Below are positions 4,437 through 37,328 of a stretch of DNA of 64,000 nt, piece by piece; the stretch's first letter is position 1, and each line of letters begins with the position of its first letter. Source of the stretch: Bacteroidales bacterium (GTDB lineage: Bacteria; Bacteroidota; Bacteroidia; Bacteroidales; UBA932); assembly GCA_022648545.1 (NCBI GenBank), contig JALCMP010000001.1, positions 1 to 64,000 on the forward strand, in the 5' to 3' direction. Position numbers and translations under genes: made by a program. Below the pieces are notes generated by a model that saw nothing but the letters and a program-made list of their open reading frames with translations, did not search any database and had not been told where the DNA came from.

Positions 4437-4441
4437 AAGCA

Positions 4442-11827: not shown

Positions 11828-11849
11828 TGTATTTCTTCGTGTTTATTTA

Positions 11850-11857
11850 CAAATATA
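11850..11857 (-). promoter_or_regulatory. Putative Bacteroidota -7 box (TATATTTG) upstream of the ROK gene
   Basis: Exact TAnnTTTG match on the minus strand, 22 nt upstream of the start codon; no convincing -33 element. Confidence 0.4.
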
Positions 11858-11895
11858 CTCCTTATATGTATAAATACCATCATTTGCGGCAAAAG

Positions 11896-14072: not shown

Positions 14073-14078
14073 AAAATA

Positions 14079-14819
14079 TTATTCATTCCGCCCCGCATTA
14101 CGGGCTATTATAGTAAAGACATCGTTCATAGCATTAACTCCGTAACTTTTCTTAAGATTGGCCGGAGTATCAAGAGCAACAATTTTTCCCGCAACCATAA
14201 TTGACACCCTGTCGCAGTACTCGGCTTCGTCCATATAATGAGTGGTTACGAAAACCGTTATCCCGCGTCCTGCAGCCTCGTATATCAATTCCCAGAACTG
14301 CCTTCTTGCAACAGGATCTACACCTCCCGTAGGTTCGTCCAGAAAAACTATTTCGGGATCATGTATGACCGAAACAGAAAAAGCGAGCTTCTGTTTCCAG
14401 CCCAAAGGAAGGGATTTTACAAGAACGTCCTTTTCTCCGTACATGTCAAGCTTTTTCAAAAGCATATCTCCGCTCTTTTTCATCCTCTCCTCGTCAAGAC
14501 CGTATATTCCGCCGAAAAGACGTATATTTTCTCCAACGGTAAGGTCGGAATACAAAGAAAATTTCTGACTCATGTAGCCTATACGGCTCTTTATCTTTTC
14601 GCTGGCACTCCATATATCCAGACCGGCAACCATGCCTTTTCCAGACGAAGGCCGGCTCAATCCGCAGAACATACGCATAGCTGTGGTCTTTCCGGCACCG
14701 TTGGCGCCAAGGAATCCGAATATCTCACCCTTTTCCACGTAAAATGAAATATCGTCAACAGCCGCAAAATTCCCAAACTTCTTAACAATATGTTCAGCTT
14801 CTATAACCCTTTGTTCCAT
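14079..14819 (-). CDS. ABC transporter ATP-binding protein with non-canonical signature
   Basis: Walker A GANGAGKTT, Walker B IVFLDEPTGGVDP; signature region is SLPLGWKQKLAF rather than LSGGQ. Confidence 0.92.
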   Translation of the reverse strand: MEQRVIEAEHIVKKFGNFAAVDDISFYVEKGEIFGFLGANGAGKTTAMRMFCGLSRPSSGKGMVAGLDIWSASEKIKSRIGYMSQKFSLYSDLTVGENIRLFGGIYGLDEERMKKSGDMLLKKLDMYGEKDVLVKSLPLGWKQKLAFSVSVIHDPEIVFLDEPTGGVDPVARRQFWELIYEAAGRGITVFVTTHYMDEAEYCDRVSIMVAGKIVALDTPANLKKSYGVNAMNDVFTIIARNAGRNE

Positions 14820-14820
14820 A

Positions 14821-15747
14821 TCATATCCTCCTGCCGTCCGTTATATACAAATAACAATCTTCTATACACGGCTCGAGCCTTTCTATTTTCACATTTTCAT
14901 TGCCGCATCCCCACAGATAATTCCCAAAATCAGAAATATCCGGTTCCTGGGAGTTGAAAAAGACATGGTGACTGTTTCCGAACGGATAGCACCTTAAAGT
15001 TCCGCGGTAACTGCGCACATCGCACAACAGCTTGTACATATTGTTCCCGGAAACACCCCATACCTGATTCCCCATTTGGGAAATCAGATTTTCGGTAGTA
15101 TCCAGAGCCAGGATCATTCCCTTTTGCATAAGAGCAATTTTGTCACACATATCAGCCTCGTCCATATAAGGAGTAGAAACCATTATGGTAATACCATTAC
15201 TCCTTAGATTACGCAGCATTTGCCAGAATTCCTTTCGCGAAACAGGATCCACCCCGGTCGTAGGTTCGTCAAGAAAAAGCACATCCGGCTTGTGGATTAA
15301 GGCACAGCACAATGCGAGTTTTTGCTTCATGCCTCCGGATAGCGCTCCGGCAAGACGATTTCCAAAAGGCCTAAGAGATCCATATATGTCTTCTATAAGA
15401 GGCATCGACTCCTCTTTATCCACCCCGAACAGCGAAGCGAAAAAATTTATATTTTCATTTACGGTAAGATCCTGATAAACGGAAAACCTGCCCGGCATAT
15501 ACCCTACGGAGTTCCTTATCTTCTCATAATCCTTCACCACATCCATACCGTTTACGGAGGCAACCCCCTTATCGGCGAGTATGAGAGTTACAAGGATTCT
15601 GAACATAGTTGTTTTTCCGGATCCGTCCGGACCTATAAGTCCGAATAATTCCCCGTCGGATACCGAAAATGAGACATCGTCGAGCGCCTTTACAGGCGCA
15701 TGCCCCGCGGAAACATAACTTTTGGATATATGTTCAGCTTTTATCAT
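14821..15747 (-). CDS. ABC transporter ATP-binding protein
   Basis: Walker A GPDGSGKTT, signature LSGGMKQKLAL, Walker B VLFLDEPTTGVDP. Confidence 0.92.
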   Translation of the reverse strand: MIKAEHISKSYVSAGHAPVKALDDVSFSVSDGELFGLIGPDGSGKTTMFRILVTLILADKGVASVNGMDVVKDYEKIRNSVGYMPGRFSVYQDLTVNENINFFASLFGVDKEESMPLIEDIYGSLRPFGNRLAGALSGGMKQKLALCCALIHKPDVLFLDEPTTGVDPVSRKEFWQMLRNLRSNGITIMVSTPYMDEADMCDKIALMQKGMILALDTTENLISQMGNQVWGVSGNNMYKLLCDVRSYRGTLRCYPFGNSHHVFFNSQEPDISDFGNYLWGCGNENVKIERLEPCIEDCYLYITDGRRI

Positions 15748-16658
15748 TCGAACTTCACCTTTCCGAACATGCCTGTTTTGGCATATCCGTCGTTGTTTAT
15801 CATAATTTTTACGGCATAAACCAAATCCTGCCTGTCGTCTTCGGTTTGTATATTATTAGGAGTGAATTCCGATTCTGAAGCTATGAAGGTTACCCTGCCG
15901 TCATACTCCCTGGCAACACCTCCGCCGAAATCGGCATAGACCTTTGCCGATTGCCCGAGCTTTACAGCATTAAGCTGAAGCGAAGTTATATAAGCTCTAA
16001 GGTACATATGTCTTATATCGGCAACCTTAAACAGCGGACGGCCTACTGGAGCAAACTCTCCGCACTCGGCATATTTGGCAAGCACCGTTCCAGACACAGG
16101 AGATTTTATATAACATTTACCCAGACGGTCCTCTATAGCTGCAAGTTCTATTTCCATTGAAGAACTGCGCGCATCAATGCTCGATACACTTTTATCCAGA
16201 GATGAAAGTTTTGCAGACAATTCGTTTTCGAGCACCTTAACCGAGGAATTAACGTCGTCAAGTTGCTTGGAAGTTGCAGCGCCGTCCCTGAGAAGTCTTT
16301 CTATCCTGGCTTTTTCAGTTTTTTGCTTTTTCAGGCGCTCCTCCAGCGCGGCAATCTGCTTTTTTACTGCAGGTCGTCCGCTGACCACGGATTCTATGCT
16401 TTTTTGCAGCTGCATTTTTTGCAGGTACAATTGAACCGTATCTATCGTTCCTGCCATTTCTCCGGCTGAAAGAGTATCCCCTTCTTCCATGTTAAAGTAA
16501 ATAAGCCGTCCCGGAACTTCTGAAGAGACTATGACTTCGGTAGCCTCGAACGTTCCCTGCGCATCATATTTATTTTCACCTCCACTGCATGCAGGCAACA
16601 AGGCCAGCACGGAAATGCAAATCACATTAAAAACAGTTTTCATAATATTCTCAGTCAA
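15744..16658 (-). CDS. HlyD-family periplasmic adaptor (membrane fusion) lipoprotein
   Basis: Lipobox LPAC; EVPGRLIYFNMEEGDTLSAG, coiled-coil, CYIKSPVSGTVLAKYAECGEFAPVGRPLFKVAD; overlaps both neighbours by 4 nt. Confidence 0.9.
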   Translation of the reverse strand: MTENIMKTVFNVICISVLALLPACSGGENKYDAQGTFEATEVIVSSEVPGRLIYFNMEEGDTLSAGEMAGTIDTVQLYLQKMQLQKSIESVVSGRPAVKKQIAALEERLKKQKTEKARIERLLRDGAATSKQLDDVNSSVKVLENELSAKLSSLDKSVSSIDARSSSMEIELAAIEDRLGKCYIKSPVSGTVLAKYAECGEFAPVGRPLFKVADIRHMYLRAYITSLQLNAVKLGQSAKVYADFGGGVAREYDGRVTFIASESEFTPNNIQTEDDRQDLVYAVKIMINNDGYAKTGMFGKVKFE

Positions 16659-17968
16659 TCGTTTATTGTTGTTTTATGATCGTAAATAGCTTTAACCAGT
16701 GTTATTTCATGCAGGGATTCGGTAATCCTTGCATCGTTTTCGTCCGTTATGCTCTTCAAAAGATCGTTTACGCTTATCACTCCGTTTTCGAACTTGGATT
16801 CGGAAGCCTTTCTTATTGAAGTACGCAACTTTTCTATGCTTCTGTCGCGTTCCACCATTTTTTTCATTTTATCTATTTCAGCCAGTTCGGCAATTCCCTT
16901 AATACGGCTGTTAAAAAGGAACGTCCTTTTTTCGGCATCGAGGCTGCGGGAATTCAAATCTATCTGCCTTAGTTTGTTCCTTCTTGTATAATACCCTCCC
17001 AGATTCCATTGCAGCCTTATTCCTGTAACATAATTCCAGCTCCAGTGATCATGCATCATGTCTCCGAACATATCCAGCCCGGGATTCCCGTAATATCCCT
17101 GAAAAAATGCACCTAATTTGGGACGCATTGATGCCTTAAGTGCGGCTGTCTGCGAAGAAAGATCTTTCTTCCGGGCATTTATAAGAGCAATCTCGGGCCT
17201 CAGCAAAGCATCGGAAAGCATAAACGCAGAATTAAAAGCGGCGGTATCACATTGCGGCATTACCGGCATTATATCCCCGGCAGCAATTCCAGTGAAAAGA
17301 GAAAGCATTCCAATGTAAGATCCCAGGGAAGCTTCTATTTCAACACGGGAGTTTTTTGCAGCAAGCAGCTCAACTCTCACGGCATCATAGTCTGCAGGCA
17401 TAGCAATTCCGTTCCTTACACAGGAAGCAACCATGTCGCAGTTGCTGTTAAGCAGCTTTTGCAAATTGTCGTTGAATTCGCGTTTCTTCTCAAGAAGCAA
17501 AATCCCAAAATAAAGATTGTCTATCCTGTCGTTCAGGGAGTACAATTCTACTTCAACGCCCATTCTTTTTACTTCGCTTTCGGTTTTCGCACGTTTTTTC
17601 TGGGATGACGATTCTCCTCCGTCCCAGATATTCTGTTCGGCCTGAACGGCCATCTTGTACTGATCCTTGTTAAATCCGTCGATGTGCAGTCCTGTCTGCG
17701 CGTATAGCTGTTCAATTTCTTCCGGAAAACCGCTAACCCGGTTCTGCCAGGAAGCCTGGGAAGAAACCGAAAAACGCGGAAGATAATTACGGCGTGCGTT
17801 GGAAATCGAATATTCGGAACTTTTCCGGATAAGACCCAGTTTTACTATCTGAGGGTAGTTTTTTCTCGCGGCACTGCGGCACGATTCCAGAGTCGTCTGG
17901 GCTCTTACCATTGCAGGAAAAACAATTGCAAATAAAAAAGGCATCAATATTTTTGACATAAGTTTCAT
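16655..17968 (-). CDS. TolC-family outer membrane efflux protein
   Basis: Signal peptide; AEQNIWDGGESSSQKKRAKTESEVKR, paired alpha-helical repeats; upstream of the HlyD gene. Confidence 0.88.
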   Translation of the reverse strand: MKLMSKILMPFLFAIVFPAMVRAQTTLESCRSAARKNYPQIVKLGLIRKSSEYSISNARRNYLPRFSVSSQASWQNRVSGFPEEIEQLYAQTGLHIDGFNKDQYKMAVQAEQNIWDGGESSSQKKRAKTESEVKRMGVEVELYSLNDRIDNLYFGILLLEKKREFNDNLQKLLNSNCDMVASCVRNGIAMPADYDAVRVELLAAKNSRVEIEASLGSYIGMLSLFTGIAAGDIMPVMPQCDTAAFNSAFMLSDALLRPEIALINARKKDLSSQTAALKASMRPKLGAFFQGYYGNPGLDMFGDMMHDHWSWNYVTGIRLQWNLGGYYTRRNKLRQIDLNSRSLDAEKRTFLFNSRIKGIAELAEIDKMKKMVERDRSIEKLRTSIRKASESKFENGVISVNDLLKSITDENDARITESLHEITLVKAIYDHKTTIND

Positions 17969-18002
17969 TGTATTGTTTTTATATATTTTTTACTTTTTAA
18001 TA

Positions 18003-18638
18003 TCACCTGTTGAAAAGACGTCCGGTTATAACCTTAATGCTTTCTTCTCTGCGCATGTCAAGAAAATCCTTTTCATATTCTGCGAACGGTGCTCCTATAT
18101 TTTTAAGAAAAGGAAGCACGAGAAAAGGAAAAATATTTAACGAAACGGCATCCATTATTATATTAATTGCATCTATCCTGTTTGCAACACCCTTGGCCGA
18201 CTCTTCGTCAATAGCTTTCTGCAGTTCTTCTCCTAATTTGGGAATTATCTCCCATATTTTCTTATCCAAAAGAATTCCTCTGCGTGATCCGGAATTGAAT
18301 TCGTTTATTATGAACCGGGGCAGCTCCGGATTTTTCCGGATAAAATCGAAATGTGATTTTACAGCCTCTGTAATTCTCTCCCTGAATGGCAGCCCGCTGC
18401 TTTTGAAAGTTCCGAATATAACCTTGATAAGCATATCAACCTTGGCATTCAGTATCTTTTCAAATAAATTTTTCTTCGTCCTGAAATAATAATGCAGCAT
18501 TGCATGCGTCACTCCTGCATTACGTGCAATAGCTTCCGTTGTGGCTCCGTCGAATCCCTTGTTAAGGAACTCCTCTTCGGCAGCTTTTAATATGCGTTCC
18601 TCCACACTTGCGTTTTCGTTCTTAGTCTTATTAACCAT
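18003..18638 (-). CDS. TetR/AcrR-family transcriptional regulator
   Basis: VEERILKAAEEEFLNKGFDGATTEAIARNAGVTHAMLHYYFRTKKNLFEKIL; start taken at MVNKTKNEN rather than the longer ORF start at 18722, because promoter and operator-like elements lie just upstream. Confidence 0.9.
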   Translation of the reverse strand: MVNKTKNENASVEERILKAAEEEFLNKGFDGATTEAIARNAGVTHAMLHYYFRTKKNLFEKILNAKVDMLIKVIFGTFKSSGLPFRERITEAVKSHFDFIRKNPELPRFIINEFNSGSRRGILLDKKIWEIIPKLGEELQKAIDEESAKGVANRIDAINIIMDAVSLNIFPFLVLPFLKNIGAPFAEYEKDFLDMRREESIKVITGRLFNR

Positions 18639-18661: not shown

Positions 18662-18693
18662 CAAACATAAAAGAAAAATCCGGGATCTCCAAA
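18662..18693 (-). promoter_or_regulatory. Putative tetR promoter
   Basis: Minus strand TTTG-N20-TATGTTTG: -33 at 18690-18693, -7 at 18662-18669. Confidence 0.55.
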
Positions 18694-18707
18694 CTGAGAT
18701 TCCGGAT
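18671..18707 (-). terminator. Intrinsic terminator downstream of the TonB/DUF4876/barrel operon
   Basis: Minus strand ATCCGGAATCTC-AGTTTG-GAGATCCCGGAT (12-bp stem with one G:U) followed by TTTTTCTT. Confidence 0.75.
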
Positions 18708-18757
18708 CAATCGGTAAAACAAACTAAACTATCACTTAAAACATTAAAAATGTTTTT

Positions 18758-20383
18758 TTAAAATGCGCAGCCTACCTTTATGGAAACTACGCTATGGGTT
18801 CCCGAGAGATACGTGCAGTCGAACGGATTGGTAAAATCATAATCGGCCGAAACATATCCCAGCATTTTACTGAAATTATGCGAATATTTGAAACCGGCAC
18901 GGGCCCTTATCCTTCCTTTTGTAAAATACTCGTACTCCCTGTTAAGGTATGCATTCATAGTTACCGGCTGTGATGTGGAAGAAGAGCCTTTGTATTCTTC
19001 GTCCCTGGCCATATAGCCGCCGCCCTTTTGATAACCGGCGCCTAGCGAGATCGTAAAATATCCGCGCCTGCTCATCAGATTCCTTTCCGCAAAAGCATCG
19101 GCCACGGCATAACGTATGCGCTGCTTTCTATAGAAAGGATACGACGAGCTCCGGCTGTCCCTCCTGTTATGCGAAGCCGACAGGCGCAAATGCCAGGCCG
19201 GGACATCGCCGCTGAATTTCCAGTAGGCATCGAATTCCCCTTTAACATCATATACCTGCCTGCTGAGCGCTTCGTTTCTCCCATAATATACTATTATGGT
19301 AGTACTACTGGAAAGAGTATTCCGGTCCCACATATTTACATAATTCGTCAGATCGGTATACCGGCCGCTTACGCTGAACAAATATCTGGCATCCTTCCCC
19401 TGTTTGAACAAACTGCCGTCGAATGCAAGGCCGGAACCGCTATGCTCCATATATCTTATGGCAGTAGTACCGTTTTTCCCATAATATCCGTTGTTATCGA
19501 ACATATAGGCGAAACTTCCGTATAATTTTACGGAACGGCCCGTATTCCACATCATTTGAAGGGATGCCGTATGGGACTGGTCGAACAACGGATGGTTTTC
19601 ATAAGTATACCCTGACGATCCTCCGAAGACTTCGGTCGTTCCGTAAAACGCGCCGTAATCTATAATGGTATAATAAGTCTTGTCGGTCTGTCCGTTCATA
19701 TCAAAATTAACCCCCTCGACCCTCTTCTTGTAAGTATAATCCAGACCTGCAGAAAAAGCATCCGAAAATCTGTACACGGAACCGATATTAATATCCATAT
19801 CCATAATACGGTTATCATGCCTCAGGTCTTTCGTCTTGGAATAATTAATTGAAGTATAATCAACTCTTGCACCTATCGAAAAACGGTTGGATATCTTTGC
19901 ACCTATTCCGCACATTACCTTATAGGTTTCCGCCAACTTGGTCCCTGCATTCGTATCCAATTGTTCTACCATATTAAAAGAGGCTGCATATGGATCATAA
20001 AAGACAGATCCGGTCATACCGTGTCCTCGGAAATTCGAATAGAGGATTTTACCGTAAACACCAATCTTTTTATTTAGTTTTACGTAGGATTCGGTTTCCA
20101 GTCCGTATTTAACACTATTGTCTGATTGATAATAATTTACAAATTTCCCTTGTTGGGTTTCAAACAAGGCACTGGCAACCGACAGCGAAGAGGAATCCAT
20201 AGTATAAAGCATGGCGGCATTAGGGCTCGTCAGCCAGGCATTCCCCGTCTTCTGCATTTTAAAGGAGTAATCCTTGCTGTTTTGCGCAAAGACGTCGGCG
20301 GATCCTATAATAAGAATCCCGCAGACTCCGTATTTCAGTATTGATTTATATATAGCTTTCAAATCTGATAAAATTTTATGCAT
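18758..20383 (-). CDS. Outer-membrane beta-barrel family protein, DUF6850-like
   Basis: 541 aa, signal peptide, amphipathic beta pattern; KTGNAWLTSPNAAML N-terminus; adjacent to a DUF4876-like gene; family name from memory. Confidence 0.6.
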   Translation of the reverse strand: MHKILSDLKAIYKSILKYGVCGILIIGSADVFAQNSKDYSFKMQKTGNAWLTSPNAAMLYTMDSSSLSVASALFETQQGKFVNYYQSDNSVKYGLETESYVKLNKKIGVYGKILYSNFRGHGMTGSVFYDPYAASFNMVEQLDTNAGTKLAETYKVMCGIGAKISNRFSIGARVDYTSINYSKTKDLRHDNRIMDMDINIGSVYRFSDAFSAGLDYTYKKRVEGVNFDMNGQTDKTYYTIIDYGAFYGTTEVFGGSSGYTYENHPLFDQSHTASLQMMWNTGRSVKLYGSFAYMFDNNGYYGKNGTTAIRYMEHSGSGLAFDGSLFKQGKDARYLFSVSGRYTDLTNYVNMWDRNTLSSSTTIIVYYGRNEALSRQVYDVKGEFDAYWKFSGDVPAWHLRLSASHNRRDSRSSSYPFYRKQRIRYAVADAFAERNLMSRRGYFTISLGAGYQKGGGYMARDEEYKGSSSTSQPVTMNAYLNREYEYFTKGRIRARAGFKYSHNFSKMLGYVSADYDFTNPFDCTYLSGTHSVVSIKVGCAF

Positions 20384-21738
20384 TATTTACCATCTCTTAA
20401 CGAAGCCTGCAAACGTTGATGAAAATCACTGGACGAATTATTCGTATCCATATAAACGATCTTCGCTCCGTTTGCAATTGAAGCTTCAGCATCTATTCCG
20501 CTCGGATCGGTACTCCCGTCGGTTATATCACCTGTTCCGTAAGCATAGCTGTATACAAGCTTACCTTTATTGGAGACTATAGCCTCGGTAGCATCCTTGT
20601 CTACATTCCTGTAAACCGAATATCCAAGCTTGGCCTTGAAAAGAATATCCCCTGCATCAACCGCTGATGTAAGGCGGTTCTTATTTGTAGAATATCCCTG
20701 CCTGAATATTTCCACTCCGTCATAAACCCAGTCCACCGGGACCTTTTTGCATACCTGCGTAGTTGATCCTCCATAATAAGATAAATTATTCGGATCAGCT
20801 GCAAATGCCGCAGGCGTGGAATTTTTGGTTGAAAACACGAATAATGCAGGAGACGTAAAACTTAGGGGCCATGCATTTCCCGCACCATAAGCATACGCAC
20901 TGAAATAATGCGAAACAGGAATATTCGCCGACGGCGCCGGATGTAACACCGTATTGGTATAAACAGATGGGTCATAAGTAACGTAATAGGATGCATCGCT
21001 CAGATCTACCGATTTAGAATAAGTTATTGTGTTGTCGTTTGCATTGTTGAATGCTATTACCACAGACTTCCACGGCTCTATGGTAAGCGACGGAATGTAG
21101 AAGAAACCCTGCCCTGCAGGAATCCATCCTTCGCTTTCATAAGAAAGTTTTCCATCAATAATATATTTATTGGTAGAGTTTGCATTATACGGCATAGCCA
21201 TTCCTATGCATAAATTCGTAAGATTTGCAACATCATCCGAATTATTATACAATTTCATATACTTGTCATAATAATAGGAACCGGAAGCATTATCCTTAGG
21301 ACATCCACCTATATACAATTCGGATATAACTATCTGGGATACCTGCGATTCCGTAAAATCTATAGAATAATCGGACGTCTCCTGCTCCTTGCTGCTCACT
21401 ATTATATTGGATACGTTTCCGTTATAGAGTTTCTTTATTCCGTTATCAAGGTTGCTCGTAGAAGCGGAAGCTCTGAATACGCCTACCGGAACTTCAAATT
21501 TTGCGGCACCTCCGGCGTCCGTCTCAGCCGTATATTCCGTACCGCTTGAAACCGACGTAAGATTCACCGTTATCCCTTCGCTCGGAGCGGAAGCTCCTGA
21601 TTCCGGGAATACTACCTTCACGGTCACCTCGTATGTCTTATAATCATTAAGTTTCTTGCATGAGACGGACATCAGGGCGACGAAAAGCAAAATAAGTGAA
21701 ATTTTCTTCATCATGATATTTTGTACTCTTTTAATCAT
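20383..21738 (-). CDS. DUF4876-like lipoprotein
   Basis: Lipobox MSVSCKK; N-terminal Ig-like segment then IVISELYIGGCPKDNASGSYYYDKYMKLYNNSDDVANLTNLCIGM; start taken at M28 of the ORF, giving an ATGA overlap with the TonB gene. Confidence 0.7.
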   Translation of the reverse strand: MIKRVQNIMMKKISLILLFVALMSVSCKKLNDYKTYEVTVKVVFPESGASAPSEGITVNLTSVSSGTEYTAETDAGGAAKFEVPVGVFRASASTSNLDNGIKKLYNGNVSNIIVSSKEQETSDYSIDFTESQVSQIVISELYIGGCPKDNASGSYYYDKYMKLYNNSDDVANLTNLCIGMAMPYNANSTNKYIIDGKLSYESEGWIPAGQGFFYIPSLTIEPWKSVVIAFNNANDNTITYSKSVDLSDASYYVTYDPSVYTNTVLHPAPSANIPVSHYFSAYAYGAGNAWPLSFTSPALFVFSTKNSTPAAFAADPNNLSYYGGSTTQVCKKVPVDWVYDGVEIFRQGYSTNKNRLTSAVDAGDILFKAKLGYSVYRNVDKDATEAIVSNKGKLVYSYAYGTGDITDGSTDPSGIDAEASIANGAKIVYMDTNNSSSDFHQRLQASLRDGK

Positions 21739-24737
21739 ATTTTTATCCTTAGAGTAAGTCCGTAGTAATATAACGGAATCTGAGAACTTTGATAAAGCGT
21801 ATACTTTGTATGGTTCCATGTCTGCTTTACCTTATTCATATTATTCAGAAAATTGTTGGCATAAAACGATATGGAAAAATGCCGTCCTATTTCTTTTGTT
21901 ATATCTATATTCGCAGAGAAATACGGAGAAATTCTGTTGGTATTTAAATAATACGAAGTATTCGATTTGACAACGAGCTTGCAAAGTTCGGCATATAACG
22001 CCGGATCGTTATTCTTAGCCCATTTTAACTTCGGAAGGAAAGGGATTTTCGTAGTCAAGTCATCATAACTTACATAATAATCAGGGTACACGGCCGCATA
22101 ATGATCCTTCAGATCAGAAATGGTCGTGGAAGGAAGATAATCTTCCCTGCTGTCGAGAACATATGCTCTGGTTCCGGAACCGATGGTCGACAGATTTCTG
22201 GTAGCGGAATACAAGGAACTCTCCACTCTCAGAGATACTATAAGACGCAATTGAGGGATATGTGTAATTATAGTTGCATTCGCATTAAACTGCTTTTTCA
22301 ACTGTCCGTTACTTACGTCCCTATCGCCCGAATAAAAACCCACATATCTATAAGGAGAACCGTCAGCCATATAAAGTGCGTTACCTGGCATACCGGCACT
22401 CATTTTCTTATCCATATATTTATATCTGTAATATATTCCGTCGAGCCTGAAGGAAGTTTGCAGCGATTTTATCTTTCCGAAATCTACGACCCATTCGAGC
22501 CCCTTTCGCGTAGAAGGTGCTTCATTTATACAATAGCTATTCTTTTTAAAAGTCTCCCGTGTGGTATAAGAAAGAATTTCCGATTGCTGGACACCAGTCT
22601 TATCTATTACCGTAACTATTCCCGTATTCCGGTCTACGTTGTATTTCCTGTTTTCCAAAGGTATGGTGCAACTCTCGAGATTCGACTGATCGGTAAAATT
22701 ATAGGCGAACGGATCATATCCGGTAGTCGTGGAATACCTGTTGAAAGTTTTATTATCGAAATAAACGAGAGAGATCTTGACATTTTTTATTTTCATATCT
22801 ATCCCTATTTCCTTCTTTAAAGTATACTGCCACTTTAGATCGGGATTATACAGCATGGTCGCCGGTCTGATATAATAGGCATAGTAAGAGGTACCATCGG
22901 CAAGCGCACCGGGGGCGAATGTAAGTTCGTCAGTATAATAAGGTCTTGGATAAAGGACGCCGGAAGAAGGCAGTTTAACAGACTTGCCTATACCTCCCTT
23001 TATGTTCAGATATTTCAGGAAAGAATTATTATTATCATTTACAATACGGTATGTAAGATTGAACCTCGGTGAATATGCCGATATATTTCCGTATTCCGAT
23101 CCGTTCATATGCGTATAGGAACCTCTTATACCAGCGGTAAGACCCAGTACGGTGCTCCCCAGCGGCAGGGAAACGGATTCTTCAGCATAAGGAGCAAGAG
23201 TATGATAGAAAGGCACATCCTTATAACGGTATTCTCTCCACCCGTCGGGAATAGTTTGGGGGTCCTTATAATATATTCCCTTTCCGTAATTTCCGCTGAA
23301 GCTGTACTCCACGCCTAATTTGAAATGGTTCCTTATTTTATTGGAAAATTCCTTTACGGAATTTATTTTAAGGCTTGCGGACCCATTCATCGGCTTGTCA
23401 TCGTTATAACACGTTTGATACCAATACCCGGGAGGGATGAGTGATACGGCGGCATTAGGATCCGTATCATAGTCGGTTGCAACAAAATAGCCTTCTTCGG
23501 TTCCGTGGACCGCGGCAAGCGCGGTTGCGGAAGACTTATAGCTCTTGTCGGTCGTCCTCTTATAGGAATAATTTACCGACCCTTTTAATTCTGCATTGGT
23601 TATGAATTTTCCGTTTACAAGCCAGTTGAATTTAAAATGCCCCCTTATGTTATTATTCTTCGCTTTCGAATAGGTATCGGAATATGCATCGGGATCGGAT
23701 TTTTGGTTCCGACCTCCGATATTCCCGCCTATACCGGCCTCGAATCTCAGAGGAGAGCTGCTCTTCCTTGCAAAGGTATTGCTGTAGGTCAAAGTAAGGG
23801 CATTCCTCGTATATTTGGTATAAGGAGACATAAGCGAAGCTACGGAACGGGCCCTGTCGTAATTGAAGTTGAGCACTCCCCCTTTTCCTACGCGGACACC
23901 TTTTGACAAGGAAACCTGTTTGGTATTAGGGTTATATGTAAAATCCACCTTCAGCGGAGACGCTCCCTTCTGGGTATTTATTACAACTATTCCACTGCTC
24001 AGGTCGCCGTATTCCACGGACGCTACACCCGAAATAACATTTACGGATTCCACGTTAGACGTTCCTATATTTCTCGTATCGGCCCCGGTCTGGCCTTCGG
24101 TGTAATCGGAATTAGTGGAAAGTCTAACGCCGTCAACTTCTACGGCCGTTCCAAAACTGGACGCTGCTCTTATCTGGAATTTTCCAATATTCTTGTCGGT
24201 CTTTGTCAATTTAGGATCATGTATCGACTGTCCCCCGGGCAAAAGAGTAAGAACATCACTTATGTTGGTAAGCTGAGATTGTTCGATCGCCGCTTTGTCG
24301 ATCGTATACTGAGTAGTATTACTGGCCTTGTTTTTTTCGGCGGTTACCGTCACTTCCTTAAGCGACAGGTCGGCAACATCCATGTAAACGGCATAATTTG
24401 TAATGTCCTTATCGACATTCAATTTAACGGTAACTGTTGCGTAACCCAGACTCGAGATGGTAAATTCCCTAACGCCGGCGGGAACTTTTGCAAAAGAGAA
24501 CTTTCCGTTCTCATCTGCGGTAGCCCATAGTTCGAAATTGTTACATTTTATTACCGCCATAGGAACAGGCTCTTTATTGCCTTTCCTATAGACAACGCCG
24601 CTAACTTTAAACGACTTTAAACCAGTTAGTTCCCCTCTACCGTAACTAAAAGACGGTAGCAAAACACATAAAATGAAAAGAGGCATAATCAGCCTCGTGA
24701 TCAAAAAATTTTTACTTGTTTTCAAAATAGGTTTCAT
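21735..24737 (-). CDS. TonB-dependent receptor with N-terminal carboxypeptidase-regulatory-like domain
   Basis: VSGVVYRKGNKEPVPMAVIKC...FSFAKVPAGVREFTISSLGYATVTV; plug FQIRAASSFGTAVEVDGVRLS, NVISGVASVEYGDLSSGIVVINT; no SusD partner. Confidence 0.9.
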   Translation of the reverse strand: MKPILKTSKNFLITRLIMPLFILCVLLPSFSYGRGELTGLKSFKVSGVVYRKGNKEPVPMAVIKCNNFELWATADENGKFSFAKVPAGVREFTISSLGYATVTVKLNVDKDITNYAVYMDVADLSLKEVTVTAEKNKASNTTQYTIDKAAIEQSQLTNISDVLTLLPGGQSIHDPKLTKTDKNIGKFQIRAASSFGTAVEVDGVRLSTNSDYTEGQTGADTRNIGTSNVESVNVISGVASVEYGDLSSGIVVINTQKGASPLKVDFTYNPNTKQVSLSKGVRVGKGGVLNFNYDRARSVASLMSPYTKYTRNALTLTYSNTFARKSSSPLRFEAGIGGNIGGRNQKSDPDAYSDTYSKAKNNNIRGHFKFNWLVNGKFITNAELKGSVNYSYKRTTDKSYKSSATALAAVHGTEEGYFVATDYDTDPNAAVSLIPPGYWYQTCYNDDKPMNGSASLKINSVKEFSNKIRNHFKLGVEYSFSGNYGKGIYYKDPQTIPDGWREYRYKDVPFYHTLAPYAEESVSLPLGSTVLGLTAGIRGSYTHMNGSEYGNISAYSPRFNLTYRIVNDNNNSFLKYLNIKGGIGKSVKLPSSGVLYPRPYYTDELTFAPGALADGTSYYAYYIRPATMLYNPDLKWQYTLKKEIGIDMKIKNVKISLVYFDNKTFNRYSTTTGYDPFAYNFTDQSNLESCTIPLENRKYNVDRNTGIVTVIDKTGVQQSEILSYTTRETFKKNSYCINEAPSTRKGLEWVVDFGKIKSLQTSFRLDGIYYRYKYMDKKMSAGMPGNALYMADGSPYRYVGFYSGDRDVSNGQLKKQFNANATIITHIPQLRLIVSLRVESSLYSATRNLSTIGSGTRAYVLDSREDYLPSTTISDLKDHYAAVYPDYYVSYDDLTTKIPFLPKLKWAKNNDPALYAELCKLVVKSNTSYYLNTNRISPYFSANIDITKEIGRHFSISFYANNFLNNMNKVKQTWNHTKYTLYQSSQIPLYYYGLTLRIKI

Positions 24738-24747
24738 TTTGTAAGCG

Positions 24748-24778
24748 CAAAAGTAATTAGAAAAATCCAAAAAACAAA
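24748..24778 (-). promoter_or_regulatory. Putative promoter of the TonB/DUF4876/barrel operon
   Basis: Minus strand TTTG-N19-TACTTTTG: -33 at 24775-24778, -7 at 24748-24755. Confidence 0.55.
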
Positions 24779-24803
24779 AGGATACCCCTTAAAATAAGGG
24801 AAG

Positions 24804-25415
24804 TTAAGGTATTCCCGGATAATCGTCTACGGTTATGATTTTATTTGAAATCGCATAAACCGCAAGACCTGCCTGGCTTTTTATTCCGGTTTTTCTGGTT
24901 ATATTTTTTCTATGACTTACAACCGTATGAAAGCTTATATTCAAATCATCTGCGATTTCCTTATTCGACAGACCAAGCGCGACATGTTTCAGGACATCCA
25001 GTTCCCGGGACGACAATTGTTCGGACATCTGCCCGCATATTTTATGGGCACGGCGGGAAAATGATTTTTCTATTATATGCTCTATGGTTTTACGCGAATC
25101 ATTAACCTGTATGAACGAATCAAAAAGATTTACTATTCCCCGCTCGAAAAATGAATACAGAAGGCCTATCCAGTAAACGGAATGGAATGAAGTTTTTTTA
25201 AGGATGAATCCTTCTGGATCGGAAATCACGAATGACGGATTTATTATCAATATATCTATATCGTATTCCGCAACGGATTCCCAGACCTCCTCCAGTGTTT
25301 CGAACCGGTACAATCTATATCTGCCGTCGAGTTGTAGCAATATATTAGAAAGGCCTTCGCATATTATTGCAGAAGGTTCCAGTATCCCTATGTTACTTTT
25401 TCTGGCAGTCATCAT
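24804..25415 (-). CDS. LuxR-family regulator with degenerate receiver-like N-terminus
   Basis: C-terminal LSSRELDVLKHVALGLSNKEIADDLNISFHTVVSHRKNITRKTGIKSQAGLAVYA; N-terminus IGILEPSAIICEGLSNILLQ...IDILIINPSF. Confidence 0.88.
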   Translation of the reverse strand: MMTARKSNIGILEPSAIICEGLSNILLQLDGRYRLYRFETLEEVWESVAEYDIDILIINPSFVISDPEGFILKKTSFHSVYWIGLLYSFFERGIVNLFDSFIQVNDSRKTIEHIIEKSFSRRAHKICGQMSEQLSSRELDVLKHVALGLSNKEIADDLNISFHTVVSHRKNITRKTGIKSQAGLAVYAISNKIITVDDYPGIP

Positions 25416-26116
25416 TTATATTTCTCTACATTGGTAACAGACGGTATGAGAACATATTCTTCCAAAATGGAATGTATATTAAGATCCGATTCCAATTCAA
25501 GAAGATTAAAAAGCAGATTACGTTTTAGATAACGGTTGCTTTTAAGGGGAATATATCCGGCAAACAATTTTTTAAGATCCGTAACCTTGGTCTCTATATC
25601 GGAATGATGCCTTCTGTAAATACGTGCGGAAAATTTCTTTTCCCGTATGTCCGCATTATTATGAAGCAATGACGCGAAATACGGAAACGCCGTTTTCTCC
25701 TCATAATAAAGATGCTGCTCTACTTCTTTCTCATATTCAGAAAAGAAAAGCTTTGCCGAACGGACTTCCGGCGTATCGTTCAATTCCAGTATCCGGTCGA
25801 GGATATTTTTAATTTCGGGAATTTTTTCTTTCAAATAATAACTGTGACTGTTTTGAAGGAATGAAATCAGAACGGGAAGCTTATCAGAAGGCAAAATCAC
25901 TACCTCCGACGGCTGGAAACCGTTATAAAGATTTGCAATCAGGACAAAAATCCCGATATCGAGATTTTCGTCCCGGCAAAAGTCCGAAACATTTTTATCT
26001 TTGAAAAGCAGGGGGACATTAAAATGCTCCAGCATTATCATCAAATACGGATTCTCGAAGACGAGGTCCGATATCTTCATATCCGGCTTTATGTAAGTCT
26101 TTCTAATTTGATACAT
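25412..26116 (-). CDS. Hemerythrin-domain protein (YtfE/ScdA-like organisation)
   Basis: SEYEKEVEQHLYYEEKTAFPYF, YRRHHSDIETKV, NIHSILEEYVLIPSV give HxxxE-type ligand spacing; overlaps the LuxR gene. Confidence 0.82.
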   Translation of the reverse strand: MYQIRKTYIKPDMKISDLVFENPYLMIMLEHFNVPLLFKDKNVSDFCRDENLDIGIFVLIANLYNGFQPSEVVILPSDKLPVLISFLQNSHSYYLKEKIPEIKNILDRILELNDTPEVRSAKLFFSEYEKEVEQHLYYEEKTAFPYFASLLHNNADIREKKFSARIYRRHHSDIETKVTDLKKLFAGYIPLKSNRYLKRNLLFNLLELESDLNIHSILEEYVLIPSVTNVEKYK

Positions 26117-26126
26117 TACATTTTTG

Positions 26127-26134
26127 CAAATCTA
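26127..26134 (-). promoter_or_regulatory. Putative -7 box (TAGATTTG) upstream of the hemerythrin gene
   Basis: Exact TAnnTTTG match on the minus strand in the 26-bp gap between the TonB receptor and hemerythrin genes; weak -33 only. Confidence 0.4.
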
Positions 26135-26142
26135 ATAAATTT

Positions 26143-28521
26143 CTAATGTATATTCCCAATTTTAATACCTATATATATAGTCCGCGGTAAAGAAGGACCG
26201 TATATAAATGCAGGATCCCTGTCTATTCCATTATCGAAATCGTCCTGATACGAATTAAAAATATTCTTCATCCCGCCGTATATCTGGAATCGCATTCCCT
26301 GGAATTTGACATTATATTTTATTTTTGCTCCTGCATCAAAGAATGGATCGGATTTTATTAATGCCCCGGCATCAGGATCGGCAAGTTTCTTTCCGAAATA
26401 AGGGATGAGCATCTTCCCCGTATAATCCCCGGAAAGAGAAATGCCTATTTTGGGGGTCGGATTTATATCCATGGAGAAATACCCGTAATCATCGGGCGTT
26501 CTCATGAATTTTTTTCTGTTGAAATTCTGGGCATCGCCATATTTGCTGCTCTGGACGGTAAAGCCCGATCTGAACGTACATAATTCGCCTAATGCTATAT
26601 TTAGTTCCATGTTTATTCCCTTTACTGTTGCTCCGTCATCTGCATTCGTCCGTGTATAAACCACTATCCCGTTTTCATCCGGTTCGCCGTAATCGGAAAC
26701 GAACGCATCTTGAAGTTTTGTATAGAACCCTTCCAGAAGAAATTCCAATCCCAGATTTTTATTAATTCTTTTATTATAATCCAGCGACGCCATAATACTG
26801 TGGCTGGTTTCCTGTTTAAGATCTGGATCATTTTTATGAAGGACCTGACGGGACCCTGATGTAGCCGTATGCAAATCCTCATCATAAACCTGCGGAGCCC
26901 TGTAACCTTCGGAATAGCTTAAGCGGGCCTGCAAATATTTCATAATATCATATTTTAAAGTAACTCTGGGACTAAATACATTGCCGCTATTGTCACCTGA
27001 AGAAGATGTCTTATCGGAAATTTTATAACTATCAAAGCGCCCTCCGGCCGAAACGTCCAGTTTCCCTACCTTAAATTCATACTGAGCAAATACTCCGCCA
27101 ATGGAGCTCGTTTGATCCGCTACCTGCGTATCTTCTGTATGAGGAATTTCCTTAATAATACCATCTTCTATTACGGCTTTATCATAATCGGGATAACCAA
27201 GTTTTTTATCATTCAGAGTTTCCCTTTTGTATTCCGCACCTACTATCAATTCGGTTCCACCGAAATGTGCATCATATTGTGATCCGGCTACATATGTAAA
27301 GCCTGCGGTTTTACCATAATTCTTAAGGGATTTATTCGCCCCGTAATATGAATTACGCAAGACACTTTGTCCAGAAAGATACACGGACCAGAGATCGTTT
27401 TTCCCAATATATCTGTCATAAGTAAGAGCTCCGGTTGTAATATTATGTCTTAAGGATTCGGAGATATCCGCTTCATGTTCGGGATAATCGAATCTGTCTC
27501 CCCCCCTCCTGTCTTCTCTTATATTAAAGAAATCAGCGGTAATCTTACTTTTTATGCCGAACCTGTGGAAAACACGGGTTCCGAACGTTGTGTTTTTTAT
27601 TTTCGTCACTTCGGAATAGCCGTCGTCGGTAGCATCGAAAGGCTGTCGGTTACGGTAAAAGCCATATACAGACATGCCGGTCCTGCCGTCGTCGGAAACT
27701 ACTGAAGTATTCGCATTAAGGGTTCTGTCGACGGCCGGCTTATCCGCATCTTTAAGGCCAACTCCTACAAAACCTTCGTTTATACCAAATTGATAAGAAT
27801 TCGCAACCGGATCTTTTAAAATAAGATTTATAGTACCGGCAATTGCATTGCTGCCGTAAAGAGCTGAGCCTCCACCTCGTACTACCTCTACTTTTTCGAG
27901 CATATTGGAAGGGATCATCTCGAGACCGTAAACTCCTGCCAGACCGCTGAATATGGATTTTCCGTTTATCAATATCTGAGAATAGGCACCTTCCATTCCA
28001 TCCATCCTTACCTGATTAAATCCGCAATTCTGGCAGTTGGTCTCCATTCTCACTCCCGGGCTAAAATTAAGCCCCTCGCTAAGGGTTATAGCATTCGTTG
28101 AAGCAAATAATTTAGGAGTAATAGTATTTACGACAACAAGAGCCCTCCTTCTGGGCTTCTCGCTTCTGTCTCCCGTAACTACTATCTGATTAAGACCAAG
28201 AGCATCCGATTTGAGATCGAAATTCACTTCAAGGGTCCTGCCCCGTTTCATAATCACTTTACGTGATTCGTTCTGATACCCCATAAAACTTGCGGTTATT
28301 GTAAGCGGCCCTTCAGGAAGGTTCAGCAATCTGTAATGACCTGTTTCATCCGTCGCGGTACCGATTGCTGTTCCATTTACACTTATATCTACAAATTGTA
28401 AATGCCTGCCGTCTGAAACAACATGCCCGAATATATTCGCATCAGTGTTAGTCTGTTGAGAATATACAACTTGCACAATTCCAATAAAGAGTAAAAGAAT
28501 AAAAAAAATTCGCTTTTTCAT
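26143..28521 (-). CDS. TonB-dependent receptor
   Basis: Signal peptide; CarboxypepD_reg-like domain; plug VRMDGMEGAYSQILINGKSIFSGLAGVYGLEMIPSNMLEKVEVVRGGGSALYGSNAIAGTINLI; terminal beta-strand. Confidence 0.93.
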   Translation of the reverse strand: MKKRIFFILLLFIGIVQVVYSQQTNTDANIFGHVVSDGRHLQFVDISVNGTAIGTATDETGHYRLLNLPEGPLTITASFMGYQNESRKVIMKRGRTLEVNFDLKSDALGLNQIVVTGDRSEKPRRRALVVVNTITPKLFASTNAITLSEGLNFSPGVRMETNCQNCGFNQVRMDGMEGAYSQILINGKSIFSGLAGVYGLEMIPSNMLEKVEVVRGGGSALYGSNAIAGTINLILKDPVANSYQFGINEGFVGVGLKDADKPAVDRTLNANTSVVSDDGRTGMSVYGFYRNRQPFDATDDGYSEVTKIKNTTFGTRVFHRFGIKSKITADFFNIREDRRGGDRFDYPEHEADISESLRHNITTGALTYDRYIGKNDLWSVYLSGQSVLRNSYYGANKSLKNYGKTAGFTYVAGSQYDAHFGGTELIVGAEYKRETLNDKKLGYPDYDKAVIEDGIIKEIPHTEDTQVADQTSSIGGVFAQYEFKVGKLDVSAGGRFDSYKISDKTSSSGDNSGNVFSPRVTLKYDIMKYLQARLSYSEGYRAPQVYDEDLHTATSGSRQVLHKNDPDLKQETSHSIMASLDYNKRINKNLGLEFLLEGFYTKLQDAFVSDYGEPDENGIVVYTRTNADDGATVKGINMELNIALGELCTFRSGFTVQSSKYGDAQNFNRKKFMRTPDDYGYFSMDINPTPKIGISLSGDYTGKMLIPYFGKKLADPDAGALIKSDPFFDAGAKIKYNVKFQGMRFQIYGGMKNIFNSYQDDFDNGIDRDPAFIYGPSLPRTIYIGIKIGNIH

Positions 28522-28633
28522 ATTTCTAATAATTATTCTTTAAATAACAAAGAAACCTTTTTACAGCAGAGCAGTCAATCCCGTAATCTTGGGGTTTTGT
28601 AATACAGGATTAATATTTTATTTTTACATAATT

Positions 28634-31498
28634 ATGAAGGACGTCGGAAGAAACGGCATAAAAATACTTGCCGCGGCAATTACGTTATTCGTACTAACGG
28701 GAACCGCATTTGCCGGCCCCAATATCATTAATTTCGGAAGATCGGACTACGGGGCGGCAAATAAGAACTGGTCCATAGCGCAGGACGGCATGAAACGGAT
28801 CTATGTTGCCAACGACATGGGTCTGCTGGAATTCGACGGCATAAAATGGTCTCTCTATACAACCCCCAATAAATCCGTAATACGATCCGTAGCCGTTTAT
28901 TCCGACAGTCTTATTTTTACAGGGAACTATGAAGATTTCGGACGTTGGGACAGAGATAAGGCCGGACAATTACATTATACTTCTCTTGCGTCAACAATAA
29001 AGGAAGACATCCCCAAAAACTGCGACTTCTGGAAAACATTCATAACCCGTGACGGCGTAATCTTCCAGTCTTTCAGCAAAATATACAAATACGACTTTCA
29101 CAGCGTGAATATATATCCTTCAAATTCTTCCGGATTTCTTTTTTTCTCGAGAATAAACGGTAAATTCTGGGCACAAAAAATCAGAGACGGATTATACGAA
29201 ATAGACGAAGGCCGTTATAAAGAAATAAAGGGAAGCGGAAAAATCTTTACAAATACCGATGTCCGGGTAATATTGGACTTGGGTAAAGGAGAAGTACTTT
29301 TGGGGACCGCCTTGCACGGACTCTATAAATATTCGAATGGCAAATTCAAACAATTCAATGAAAAGCTGTCTTCCATTATGGAACGCGACGAACTTAACTG
29401 CGCAATAAAGTTAGCTGACGATAAAATAGTATTCGGAACAATAGGGAACGGATTGTATATGACAAATCGTTCCGGGGAAATAGAATCACACATATCCATT
29501 GCTTCAGGACTTATGAACAATACCATACTTTCCCTCTTGAAAAACGACGCCGGGGATATATGGGCAGGCATGGATAACGGAATAGCCTTTCTTAATTACA
29601 GTTCCAACATGGAATACTACACTGGTAAAAAATGGAATTACGGTGCAGTATATTCCGCCATATTATGGCAGGACAAACTTATAATAGGGACCAATCAGGG
29701 TGTTTTTTATTCTGCATGGAACGCATCTCATATTTCCGACACAATTCCTGCATTCAGAACCGTCCCGGGAACCGAAGGACAAACATGGAATTTTCATATA
29801 GCCGGGGACGAACTTTACTGCTGCCATAACAGAGGACTGCTGAAAATAACCGGAAATTTCCGGTCCATAGCCGTACCCGGTATAAATACGGGAATTTACG
29901 ATATGACAAACGCCGACATGAATGGAAAGGAAGTTTCACTGCTGGCTACATATTCGGGCATATATATAAAGAAAAATAACGAAGATTCCTTCTCGCTTAT
30001 AAAGGGAACAAACGAACCTTTTATAAAGATAAAGGTAGACCATCTTCAGAATATATGGGCAGAAGATCCAATGAAGGGTATTTACAGATGCAGACTTACT
30101 GACGATCTGCAATCCGTGGAAAGCATGCATTATTTCGGAGGCCCCGGAGGATATCCGGCATCATTCAAGCTTAAGCTGTTTATGATAGGAGGCAGGGCGG
30201 TCCTTCTCGGAGATAACAGGTTTTATACTTATAATGATATAAAGGACACTCTGGAACGCGACGATATTCTTAACAGTTGCTTTAAAAAAATCCTGAATCC
30301 TATAAGGAATATAATACATATATCGCAATATGAATTCCTTGCCATATCCGACCGTGAGATTTACAAATTCTATTACAACGGATACAAGGCTGAAATACTG
30401 GGATCAGGGAATATTGATAAATCATCCAATCTGGTTTATAATTATGAGAATGCAGCTATATTGAACGACACCACGTACCTGCTTTTTCTGGATAATGGAT
30501 TTTTGATCAAACGCTACGGCGAGAAAAAAGATAAAGGCACAATCATATCGGAAAACACACCCGCAAGGCCGTACATAAAGGGGATAACGGCAACTAACGG
30601 CAAAAGAACCATTTATTTCTCTTCTTCGGATCAAAATATAGAAATCCCGCATTCCTTCAAAAAGATTTCCTTTCAATATGCGGCAATAAACATGTTCGCT
30701 TCCGATATATATTTCAGATATAAGGTAAAAGGTTTGTCCGATGCATGGTCGGAACCGGGCAGGAACGGAATTACAAATCTCGAACGCATATCAGCAGGCA
30801 ATTATGAATTCATTCTCGGGACTATAGACGAAACGGGAAAAACAGAACAGGCCGAATCCGTAAAATTCAGAATAGAGTCCCCATGGTACGAAACCTTTTA
30901 TGCTTTCCTTATATTCACATTCGTTCTTTTCATAATTATTGCCGAAGGGTTCCTTATATTCAGAAAAAGATACAGGACAAAATATCTCCGTTCCCTGCGA
31001 TACAAGGAAATAATAGATTTGAGAAAAGAGAACAAAGATCTCACGGACGAGATTGATGATAAAAATGCAGAAATATATTCCCAAAGCTCCGCTATTATAA
31101 AAAGAGACGAAATACTCACAAAGGTAAAAAGCATGCTTTCCTCGGAATTGCCGCTGGGTAGCCGTCCCGTAATTAAAATTGTAAGGAAGGTCAATTCATA
31201 TATCGAAGAGAACCTTAATTCCGACAAAGACTGGAACCTGTTCCTCATTAAATTCAATCAGCAAAACGACGGTTTCTTTACAATGCTGAAGGGAAAATAT
31301 CCCGATCTAAGTTCCAACGATCTAAAATTATGCGCATGTCTTAAATTAAACATGAATTCAAAAGACATAGCCTCCTTCATGAATCTATCTGTAAGAGCAA
31401 TTGAAAATGGAAGATACAGACTCAGGAAGAAGATCGGACTCAGCCAGCGGCAGAACCTAAACGAATTTATAATGAATATAGGTAAAGAAGAATCCTGA
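28634..31498 (+). CDS. Membrane-spanning propeller-type sensor with C-terminal LuxR-type HTH
   Basis: Signal/TM N-terminus, repeated propeller-like segments (WSLYTTPNKSVIRSVAV, DIWAGMDNGIAFL), Y_Y_Y-like FRYKVKGLSDAWSEPG, TM FYAFLIFTFVLFIIIAEGFLIF, C-terminal LSSNDLKLCACLKLNMNSKDIASFMNLSVRAIENGRYRLRKKIGL; start taken at internal M16. Confidence 0.85.
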   Translation: MKDVGRNGIKILAAAITLFVLTGTAFAGPNIINFGRSDYGAANKNWSIAQDGMKRIYVANDMGLLEFDGIKWSLYTTPNKSVIRSVAVYSDSLIFTGNYEDFGRWDRDKAGQLHYTSLASTIKEDIPKNCDFWKTFITRDGVIFQSFSKIYKYDFHSVNIYPSNSSGFLFFSRINGKFWAQKIRDGLYEIDEGRYKEIKGSGKIFTNTDVRVILDLGKGEVLLGTALHGLYKYSNGKFKQFNEKLSSIMERDELNCAIKLADDKIVFGTIGNGLYMTNRSGEIESHISIASGLMNNTILSLLKNDAGDIWAGMDNGIAFLNYSSNMEYYTGKKWNYGAVYSAILWQDKLIIGTNQGVFYSAWNASHISDTIPAFRTVPGTEGQTWNFHIAGDELYCCHNRGLLKITGNFRSIAVPGINTGIYDMTNADMNGKEVSLLATYSGIYIKKNNEDSFSLIKGTNEPFIKIKVDHLQNIWAEDPMKGIYRCRLTDDLQSVESMHYFGGPGGYPASFKLKLFMIGGRAVLLGDNRFYTYNDIKDTLERDDILNSCFKKILNPIRNIIHISQYEFLAISDREIYKFYYNGYKAEILGSGNIDKSSNLVYNYENAAILNDTTYLLFLDNGFLIKRYGEKKDKGTIISENTPARPYIKGITATNGKRTIYFSSSDQNIEIPHSFKKISFQYAAINMFASDIYFRYKVKGLSDAWSEPGRNGITNLERISAGNYEFILGTIDETGKTEQAESVKFRIESPWYETFYAFLIFTFVLFIIIAEGFLIFRKRYRTKYLRSLRYKEIIDLRKENKDLTDEIDDKNAEIYSQSSAIIKRDEILTKVKSMLSSELPLGSRPVIKIVRKVNSYIEENLNSDKDWNLFLIKFNQQNDGFFTMLKGKYPDLSSNDLKLCACLKLNMNSKDIASFMNLSVRAIENGRYRLRKKIGLSQRQNLNEFIMNIGKEES

Positions 31499-31646
31499 AG
31501 GCCGGCAACGCACTGAACTATATATACGTTTTATTATCAAACACATGTACCATCATGAGAGGTAAAGATGAGGTGCATTTCATAAAAAAATTCATGTTGA
31601 GAAATCGTAGTGAGTAGCATTCCCGCCTATCCGGCAGGTCAAATGT

Positions 31647-31654
31647 TAAATTTG
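31647..31654 (+). promoter_or_regulatory. Putative -7 box (TAAATTTG) of the beta-1,2-glucan PUL susC
   Basis: Exact TAnnTTTG match 115 nt upstream of the susC start; no clear -33. Confidence 0.4.
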
Positions 31655-31768
31655 TATTAAAGGATCTCCGAGAAAGTGTTACTATTTTTTCTTGTATCCA
31701 ATAAAAATATCAAGAAAAGACAGGAAAACAAAACGAACCAACAAATTTAACCAAAAATCTTTAACATT

Positions 31769-34810: not shown

Positions 34811-34830
34811 CAAATAAACTCTGAATCGAT

Positions 34831-36381: not shown

Positions 36382-36403
36382 CAGATAATAAAATCCATAA
36401 AAA

Positions 36404-37252: not shown

Positions 37253-37263
37253 CGGCATTCAAT

Positions 37264-37306: not shown

Positions 37307-37328
37307 TTATAAAAACCCCTGGAAAAAA

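Follow-up and report, generated by a model that had tools for sequence, protein, structure and literature searches.

How might a CdhR-type regulator, which pairs with an upstream hemerythrin gene, learn of the iron status of the cell, and does such a pair control the outer-membrane receptors beside which it lies? The question is raised by positions 18,758 to 28,521 of contig JALCMP010000001.1, from a Bacteroidales bacterium of the UBA932 lineage (assembly GCA_022648545.1), whose first 64,000 nucleotides were analysed here and are referred to as the window. According to the list of open reading frames (ORFs), six genes are transcribed in this stretch from the minus strand. In order, these encode a TonB-dependent receptor (TBDT1), a RIC-like hemerythrin protein (HHE), a CdhR-type LuxR regulator, a second TonB-dependent receptor (TBDT2), a DUF4876 lipoprotein and a DUF6850 barrel. 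We interpret the stretch as an outer-membrane iron-acquisition island, made up of a lone TonB receptor, a CdhR-type pair and an uptake trio, with sensing by HHE and local regulation proposed; we assign this interpretation a probability of roughly 0.65. The component families are already known. What is added is the arrangement, along with family-wide comparative evidence for HHE as the sensor.

HHE is the probable input domain of the regulator pair

In the window, the HHE gene is immediately upstream of the LuxR gene, on the same strand. To describe this coupling more widely, we used an order-wide sample, less redundant than the alignment search described below, in which 54 of 60 loci were readable and 6 were lost to gene calling. 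A helix-turn-helix (HTH) domain adjoins HHE or is fused to it in 53 of these 54 loci, which comprise 46 HHE-to-LuxR pairs, 3 fusions, 2 bare HTH genes of 80 aa and 2 cases with LuxR before HHE. Single-gene HHE-HTH fusions devoid of a receiver accounted for 10 of the first 30 loci, mostly from the window's own genus. Pairs can also be duplicated: two HHE-LuxR pairs are found about 2 kb apart on a single contig (L140, positions 5293-10008; the same as L033).

The LuxR partner is not a canonical phosphorylated NarL/FixJ response regulator, in that the phospho-acceptor position of its receiver is Asn59 rather than Asp. This position is Asn in 74 of the 81 rows of the LuxR family alignment, which include two HHE-HTH fusions whose receiver columns carry no meaning; the conserved Lys is also missing.

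The ligand residues of HHE are H91, H135, E139, H171, H215 and E219, to which Cys47 may be added; there is no Cys-Cys pair. Among 138 homologous proteins in the alignment, H91, H135, E139 and H171 are invariant; 137 proteins retain H215 and 136 retain E219, the exceptions being gaps. Each of the six di-iron ligands characteristic of RIC is thus present in 136 or more of these proteins. Cys47 is kept in 137. A profile built from 16 HHE homologues matches ScdA (9.8e-11) and YtfE along most of their length, and HHE shares with these RIC proteins an N-terminus like ScdA_N ahead of the hemerythrin domain. It differs from them in its association with an HTH partner. Where the alignment shows FCCGG in ScdA, the Cys-Cys pair is replaced throughout the HHE family. 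Because of the HTH coupling, the receiver-less fusions, the kept ligands, the lost repair cysteines and the lost phosphorylation site, HHE is probably the sensor of the pair, i.e., its input domain.

Iron-uptake genes recur beside the pair

The alignment search with HHE returned 80 loci, of which 75 have the pair intact and the remainder correspond to contig ends or gene-calling gaps. In 22 of 73 loci a TonB receptor gene comes directly after LuxR, whereas at a distance of at least five genes the frequency is about 1-2%; these loci include near relatives, and the count is not one of independent events. Clustering of the neighbours places a TonB receptor within three genes of the pair at 33 loci; the corresponding figures are 14 for FeoAB and 9 for an OprB porin. 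In the order-wide sample, TonB receptors and FeoB together account for 14 of the 315 gene slots within three genes of the pair and for 2 of the 406 slots beyond (Fisher p = 0.0003); taken singly, FeoB gives p = 0.0013 and the TonB receptor p = 0.08.

Published relatives of both halves of the locus respond to iron depletion, which raises expression of PG1236-38 by 2- to 7-fold and of BT0519-20 by 16- to 20-fold (PMC10434189). The DUF4876 operons PG1019-22, BT1938-39 and BT3631-33 have likewise been published as iron-starvation-induced, with a 20.8- to 214.5-fold increase for PG1019-22 (DUF4876 and TonB receptor) and a 112- to 128-fold increase for BT3631-33 (PMC10434189). CdhR is described as an activator of hmu genes (PMC10101095) and regulates hmuYR, iron binding by CdhR being yet to be shown (PMC10434189). 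A preliminary description of this DNA had proposed iron- or redox-gated uptake. Its iron component is supported by the induction of these relatives and by the enrichment of TonB receptors and FeoAB beside the pair; its O2/NO component gains no such support. We infer a sensor role for HHE, control of these receptors by the pair and, as our best reading of the substrate class from sequence, locally regulated uptake of an iron chelate or heme.

A conserved trio of receptor, lipoprotein and barrel

Most of 60 DUF4876 loci contain the block TBDT2-DUF4876-DUF6850 with its genes in this order, and in the window the three genes follow one another with matches above the Pfam cut-offs (PF16215 for the lipoprotein, PF21012 for the barrel). 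The lipoprotein and the second barrel, previously regarded as unexplained partners of the receptor, are instead members of a conserved trio from known Pfam families. The lipobox Cys of the DUF4876 lipoprotein is invariant in 13 homologues, and BT_1938, for which a crystal structure exists (4Q1Z), is its top match both structurally and by sequence. The AlphaFold2 model of the DUF6850 protein has 18 strands and no plug domain, with a mean pLDDT (predicted local distance difference test) of 78.9. Foldseek returned only matches of low TM (template-modelling) score to FadL-type and TonB-type barrels, and no sequence relative was found in the PDB. Elsewhere, the trio often precedes genes for an ATP-binding cassette (ABC) ATPase, a membrane protein, DUF4857 and a PepSY-like protein, or for HEAT-repeat proteins, in agreement with the published BT3625-33 and BT1933-39 loci. 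The window trio belongs to a divergent DUF4876 subfamily; a second DUF4876 locus, typical of the genus, is on contig C23 of the same genome.

The lone receptor TBDT1

The plug of TBDT1 bears the conserved motif NCQNCGFNQVRM, and the alignment shows NCQNC in TBDT1 and most of its orthologues. Twelve receptors adjacent to HHE-LuxR pairs carry a CQxC motif in their plug. The CxxC motif takes the form NCQNCGFNQVRM in TBDT1 orthologues and CQxCNFTMVRMQG in receptors beside HHE-LuxR pairs; besides the window, the loci with a CxxC-plug receptor are L282-L300, L085, L086, L100, L101, L106, L107, L112, L117, L119, L122, L132 and L135. A metal or redox role for this motif is possible.

Relatives of TBDT1 with 51-60% identity occur in other families, and its best solved relative by sequence is XusA (9GBC), mainly through the plug region. 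The heme-receptor family TIGR01785 matches TBDT1 below cut-off; for this reason TBDT1 was not accepted as a true heme receptor. Among the matches listed, TBDT1 orthologues are mostly on contigs other than that of HHE, or far from HHE. One exception is L131 of Prolixibacter bellariivorans, where a close relative of TBDT1 shares a strand with HHE-LuxR, an OprB porin and a FeoAB fusion (positions 9899-18541). As judged from these neighbourhoods, linkage of TBDT1 to HHE is not a rule, and the placement of two receptors around the pair, prominent in the preliminary description, is not conserved.

Gene arrangement and transcription units

The ORF list and the Pfam scan confirm the six genes as first described and identify the 541-aa barrel as DUF6850 (Table 1). 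A TonB plug and barrel were detected in both receptors, PF01814 in HHE (1.2e-6, above cut-off), the GerE/LuxR HTH PF00196 in the regulator (1.4e-17), PF16215 in the lipoprotein (5.7e-19) and PF21012 in the 541-aa barrel (3.1e-36). No SusD-family gene was found by Pfam and the ORF list beside TBDT1 or TBDT2, as had been noted before, and only the DUF4876 and DUF6850 genes come after TBDT2; with no SusD-family lipoprotein next to a receptor, the locus does not classify as a SusCD glycan importer.

The overlap already noted between the HHE and LuxR genes is a 4-nt ATGA, and the lipoprotein and DUF6850 genes share 1 nt. A lipoprotein start at 21738 would give an ATGA overlap with the TBDT2 stop, the other possible start being 21711. 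The strong terminator previously noted after the trio was confirmed (Table 1), although a simple scan missed it. TAnnTTTG is the consensus of the Bacteroidetes -7 promoter element. Because the HHE pair and TBDT2 each have their own upstream TAnnTTTG box, the locus probably comprises three transcription units, and the reading as a single operon was discarded.

Table 1. Features of the iron-acquisition locus, with positions in the window.
Feature	Position	Strand	Basis or remark
TBDT1, TonB-dependent receptor, 792 aa	26143..28521	minus	PF13715 carboxypeptidase-regulatory-like domain, PF07715 plug, PF00593 barrel
TAGATTTG, TAnnTTTG -7 element match upstream of HHE	26127..26134	minus	sequence and consensus
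HHE, RIC-like hemerythrin protein, 234 aa	25412..26116	minus	PF01814 and homologue alignments
CdhR-type LuxR regulator, 203 aa, pseudo-receiver and GerE HTH	24804..25415	minus	PF00196
TACTTTTG, TAnnTTTG -7 element match just upstream of TBDT2	24748..24755	minus	sequence and consensus
TBDT2, TonB-dependent receptor, first member of the DUF4876 trio	21735..24737	minus	ATG start 24737; ORF open from 24770
DUF4876 surface-type lipoprotein	20383..21738	minus	alternative start 21711; ORF 20383-21819
DUF6850 outer-membrane barrel, 541 aa	18758..20383	minus	PF21012
Intrinsic terminator, end of trio	18672..18708	minus	hairpin and T run, -18.7 kcal/mol, z -3.25

The 8-mer ATTAGAAA was set aside as a candidate regulatory site, having been chosen after the fact. 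All five of its copies in the 64-kb window fall inside the locus (at 24756, 25344, 26100, 26140 and 28523), and HHE, TBDT1 and TBDT2 each have one of them a short distance upstream.

Chance neighbours or a joint cassette

An alternative that we consider unlikely, while giving it real weight, is that the pair is a global iron regulator that lies by chance between receptors answering to Fur, an extracytoplasmic function (ECF) factor or distant regulators, and has no specific control over them. Of the other DUF4876 trios, 57 of 59 have no HHE-LuxR pair nearby, and most pairs have no trio nearby; pair and trio each possess a promoter-like box, and in P. gingivalis and B. thetaiotaomicron the locus tags of the two loci are widely separated although both loci are iron-regulated (PMC10434189). 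What argues against coincidence is the enrichment of TonB receptors and FeoB beside the pair, the recurrence of the trio-pair neighbourhood at two more loci, and the dissimilarity of HHE, TBDT1 and TBDT2 from their nearest congeneric counterparts.

The two recurrences, L241 and L264, belong to two other families. The absence of co-occurrence beyond this genome, which the preliminary description had named as the outcome that would speak against it, was therefore not observed, although co-occurrence is rare. In L241 the pair and the trio are on the same strand in the same order, with one 493-aa gene between them; in L264 they diverge from a shared intergenic region. A third pair, in L247, is about 18 kb from the trio. 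The count of 2 in 59 compares with about 0.1-0.3 expected (p ~0.005-0.04), where the expectation is rough, being derived from estimated rates (~1.3 HHE per 3.5-Mb genome), and gene calling may have missed pairs. Linkage beyond chance is thus suggestive only. No published description of this neighbourhood, with the pair next to the trio, was found.

The origin of the genes bears on the same question. The window HHE is 25-32% identical to congeneric HHE proteins versus 43-50% to proteins from other families, and in the tree it falls inside a large clade that excludes its congeners (100/98 support). Approximately unbiased (AU) tests, for groups named after the first tree had been inspected, reject its grouping with either congeneric clade (p = 4.7e-5 and 1.5e-4). 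Its branch is long (1.31) and its exact placement unsure. TBDT1 and TBDT2 have no close congeneric counterparts either; because all three proteins are so distinct, their joint arrival is suggested. By these comparisons the cassette is foreign to its genus, and its acquisition by transfer as a unit is likely, but no donor locus with the complete arrangement was found.

Several observations weigh against the interpretation as a locally regulated iron-acquisition island. The pair-trio linkage is rare, so that CdhR may control the trio from a distance or have no effect on it. The window trio lacks the ABC, DUF4857 and PepSY genes that are frequent after it elsewhere, and the likeness of the pair to PG1236/CdhR and BT0519-20 is drawn from architecture and published descriptions. 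With regard to DNA sites, no order-wide motif upstream of HHE genes survived multiple testing (62 dereplicated promoters versus 1583 others). A Fur-box-like palindrome, TTAGAATNATTCTAA, occurs with at most two mismatches in 13 loci of a Proteiniphilum-like clade versus 0.5 expected; it is confined to that one clade and is not in the window locus.

The palindrome was accordingly rejected as a shared site for the window locus, being absent there and, in genome G000, no commoner than a reversed control. Loci of the Proteiniphilum/Fermentimonas-like clade that have it upstream of the HHE-LuxR operon include L114, L117, L128, L130, L132, L136, L138, L143, L144, L145, L148 and L159.

Oxygen, nitric oxide and repair

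Considerably less probable is that HHE is a di-iron sensor of O2 or nitric oxide (NO), shutting off uptake when the cell meets oxidative or nitrosative stress. O2/NO chemistry would suit its hemerythrin domain and its RIC ancestry, and down-regulation of cdhR under microaerophilic conditions is cited in PMC10101095; the published induction of the relatives, however, comes from iron depletion, the RIC Cys-Cys pair is absent from the HHE family, and the recurrent neighbours are uptake genes rather than genes for NO or O2 detoxification. Very improbable, finally, is that HHE is an Fe-S or di-iron repair protein of the RIC/YtfE/ScdA kind, merely co-expressed with an unrelated LuxR: it is similar to ScdA and YtfE and matches TIGR03652 (RIC), but this match scores 50.4 bits against an NCBIfam cut-off of 204.7, the Cys-Cys pair is missing family-wide and HTH coupling is near-universal, with fusions, so that by the TIGR03652 score and the Cys-Cys loss HHE is not a RIC protein.

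Proposed mechanism

Returning to the iron-acquisition island, we tentatively propose, at somewhat under even odds, that HHE supplies the iron sensor so far missing from CdhR-type regulators, as a RIC-derived di-iron domain that has lost the repair cysteines and acts on an HTH via a dead receiver or, when fused, directly. In the window it would locally gate a lipoprotein-assisted TonB importer that employs a second barrel, the plugless 18-strand DUF6850 protein. The iron content or redox state of the di-iron site would report cellular iron. HHE would then act through the translationally coupled LuxR, whose receiver presumably cannot be phosphorylated in the usual way, and the signal would alter DNA binding by LuxR such that transcription of uptake genes, neighbouring and probably also distant, rises when iron is short. 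At the cell surface, the DUF4876 lipoprotein would capture an iron chelate or heme and pass it to TBDT2, with the plugless DUF6850 barrel cooperating with both.

The comparative facts make the upstream hemerythrin protein a directly testable hypothesis for the sensor of CdhR-type regulators. In colitis, induction of many of these iron-starvation genes is reported, and such a sensor is therefore relevant to the adaptation of gut and oral Bacteroidota to inflammation. Structural work has a defined target in the conserved DUF4876-DUF6850 trio.

Other loci in the window

Directly past the terminator, the minus strand holds an unrelated TetR gene and efflux operon (OEP, HlyD-like, ABC and ABC-2; 11896-18638); the published iron-starvation loci of B. 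thetaiotaomicron and P. gingivalis also hold TetR and ABC genes, of different make-up. On the plus strand, 28589-42684 is a separate glycan-use locus, with a divergent Y_Y_Y-type regulator, SusC/SusD-like genes, two PF10091 glycoamylases and a GH3 glycoside hydrolase (GH). A second plus-strand locus, 60-10707, is probably of the mannan type, with SusC/SusD-like genes and two enzymes, one GH26 and the other GH2-like; next to it, on the opposite strand, comes a kinase-like gene. The GH2 and kinase were assigned by eye only. Two consecutive, similar-looking sensor kinases with SBP_bac_3 N-termini are at 43800-48557 (plus strand; Pfam on the first only), and a single minus-strand gene at 48582-50654 has two tandem GH53 (galactanase) domains.

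Comparison with known systems

The closest parallels for a TonB receptor together with a surface lipoprotein for a scarce nutrient are XusABC (BT_2065-2063) and BtuBG, and XusA is also the solved protein nearest to TBDT1. XusB, however, is a DUF4374 beta-propeller, whereas the window lipoprotein is DUF4876 and is accompanied by a second barrel; Pfam found neither a DUF4374 lipoprotein nor a PepSY domain among the scanned neighbours. PG1019-PG1022, BT1938-39 and BT3631-33 share with the window a TonB receptor with a DUF4876 lipoprotein. The window lipoprotein differs in its extra C-terminal stretch and divergent subfamily, and its trio is followed by none of the ABC/DUF4857/PepSY or HEAT genes; instead, the regulator pair adjoins it.

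For the pair itself, the counterparts are PG1236-PG1237 (CdhR) of Porphyromonas gingivalis and BT0519-BT0520 of B. thetaiotaomicron, in which a hemerythrin gene is likewise followed by a LuxR-type regulator. Fused forms of this family exist in the window's genus and in Prevotella intermedia, the latter being already published (PMC10434189). These relatives are not reported beside a DUF4876 operon, whereas the window pair stands next to one.

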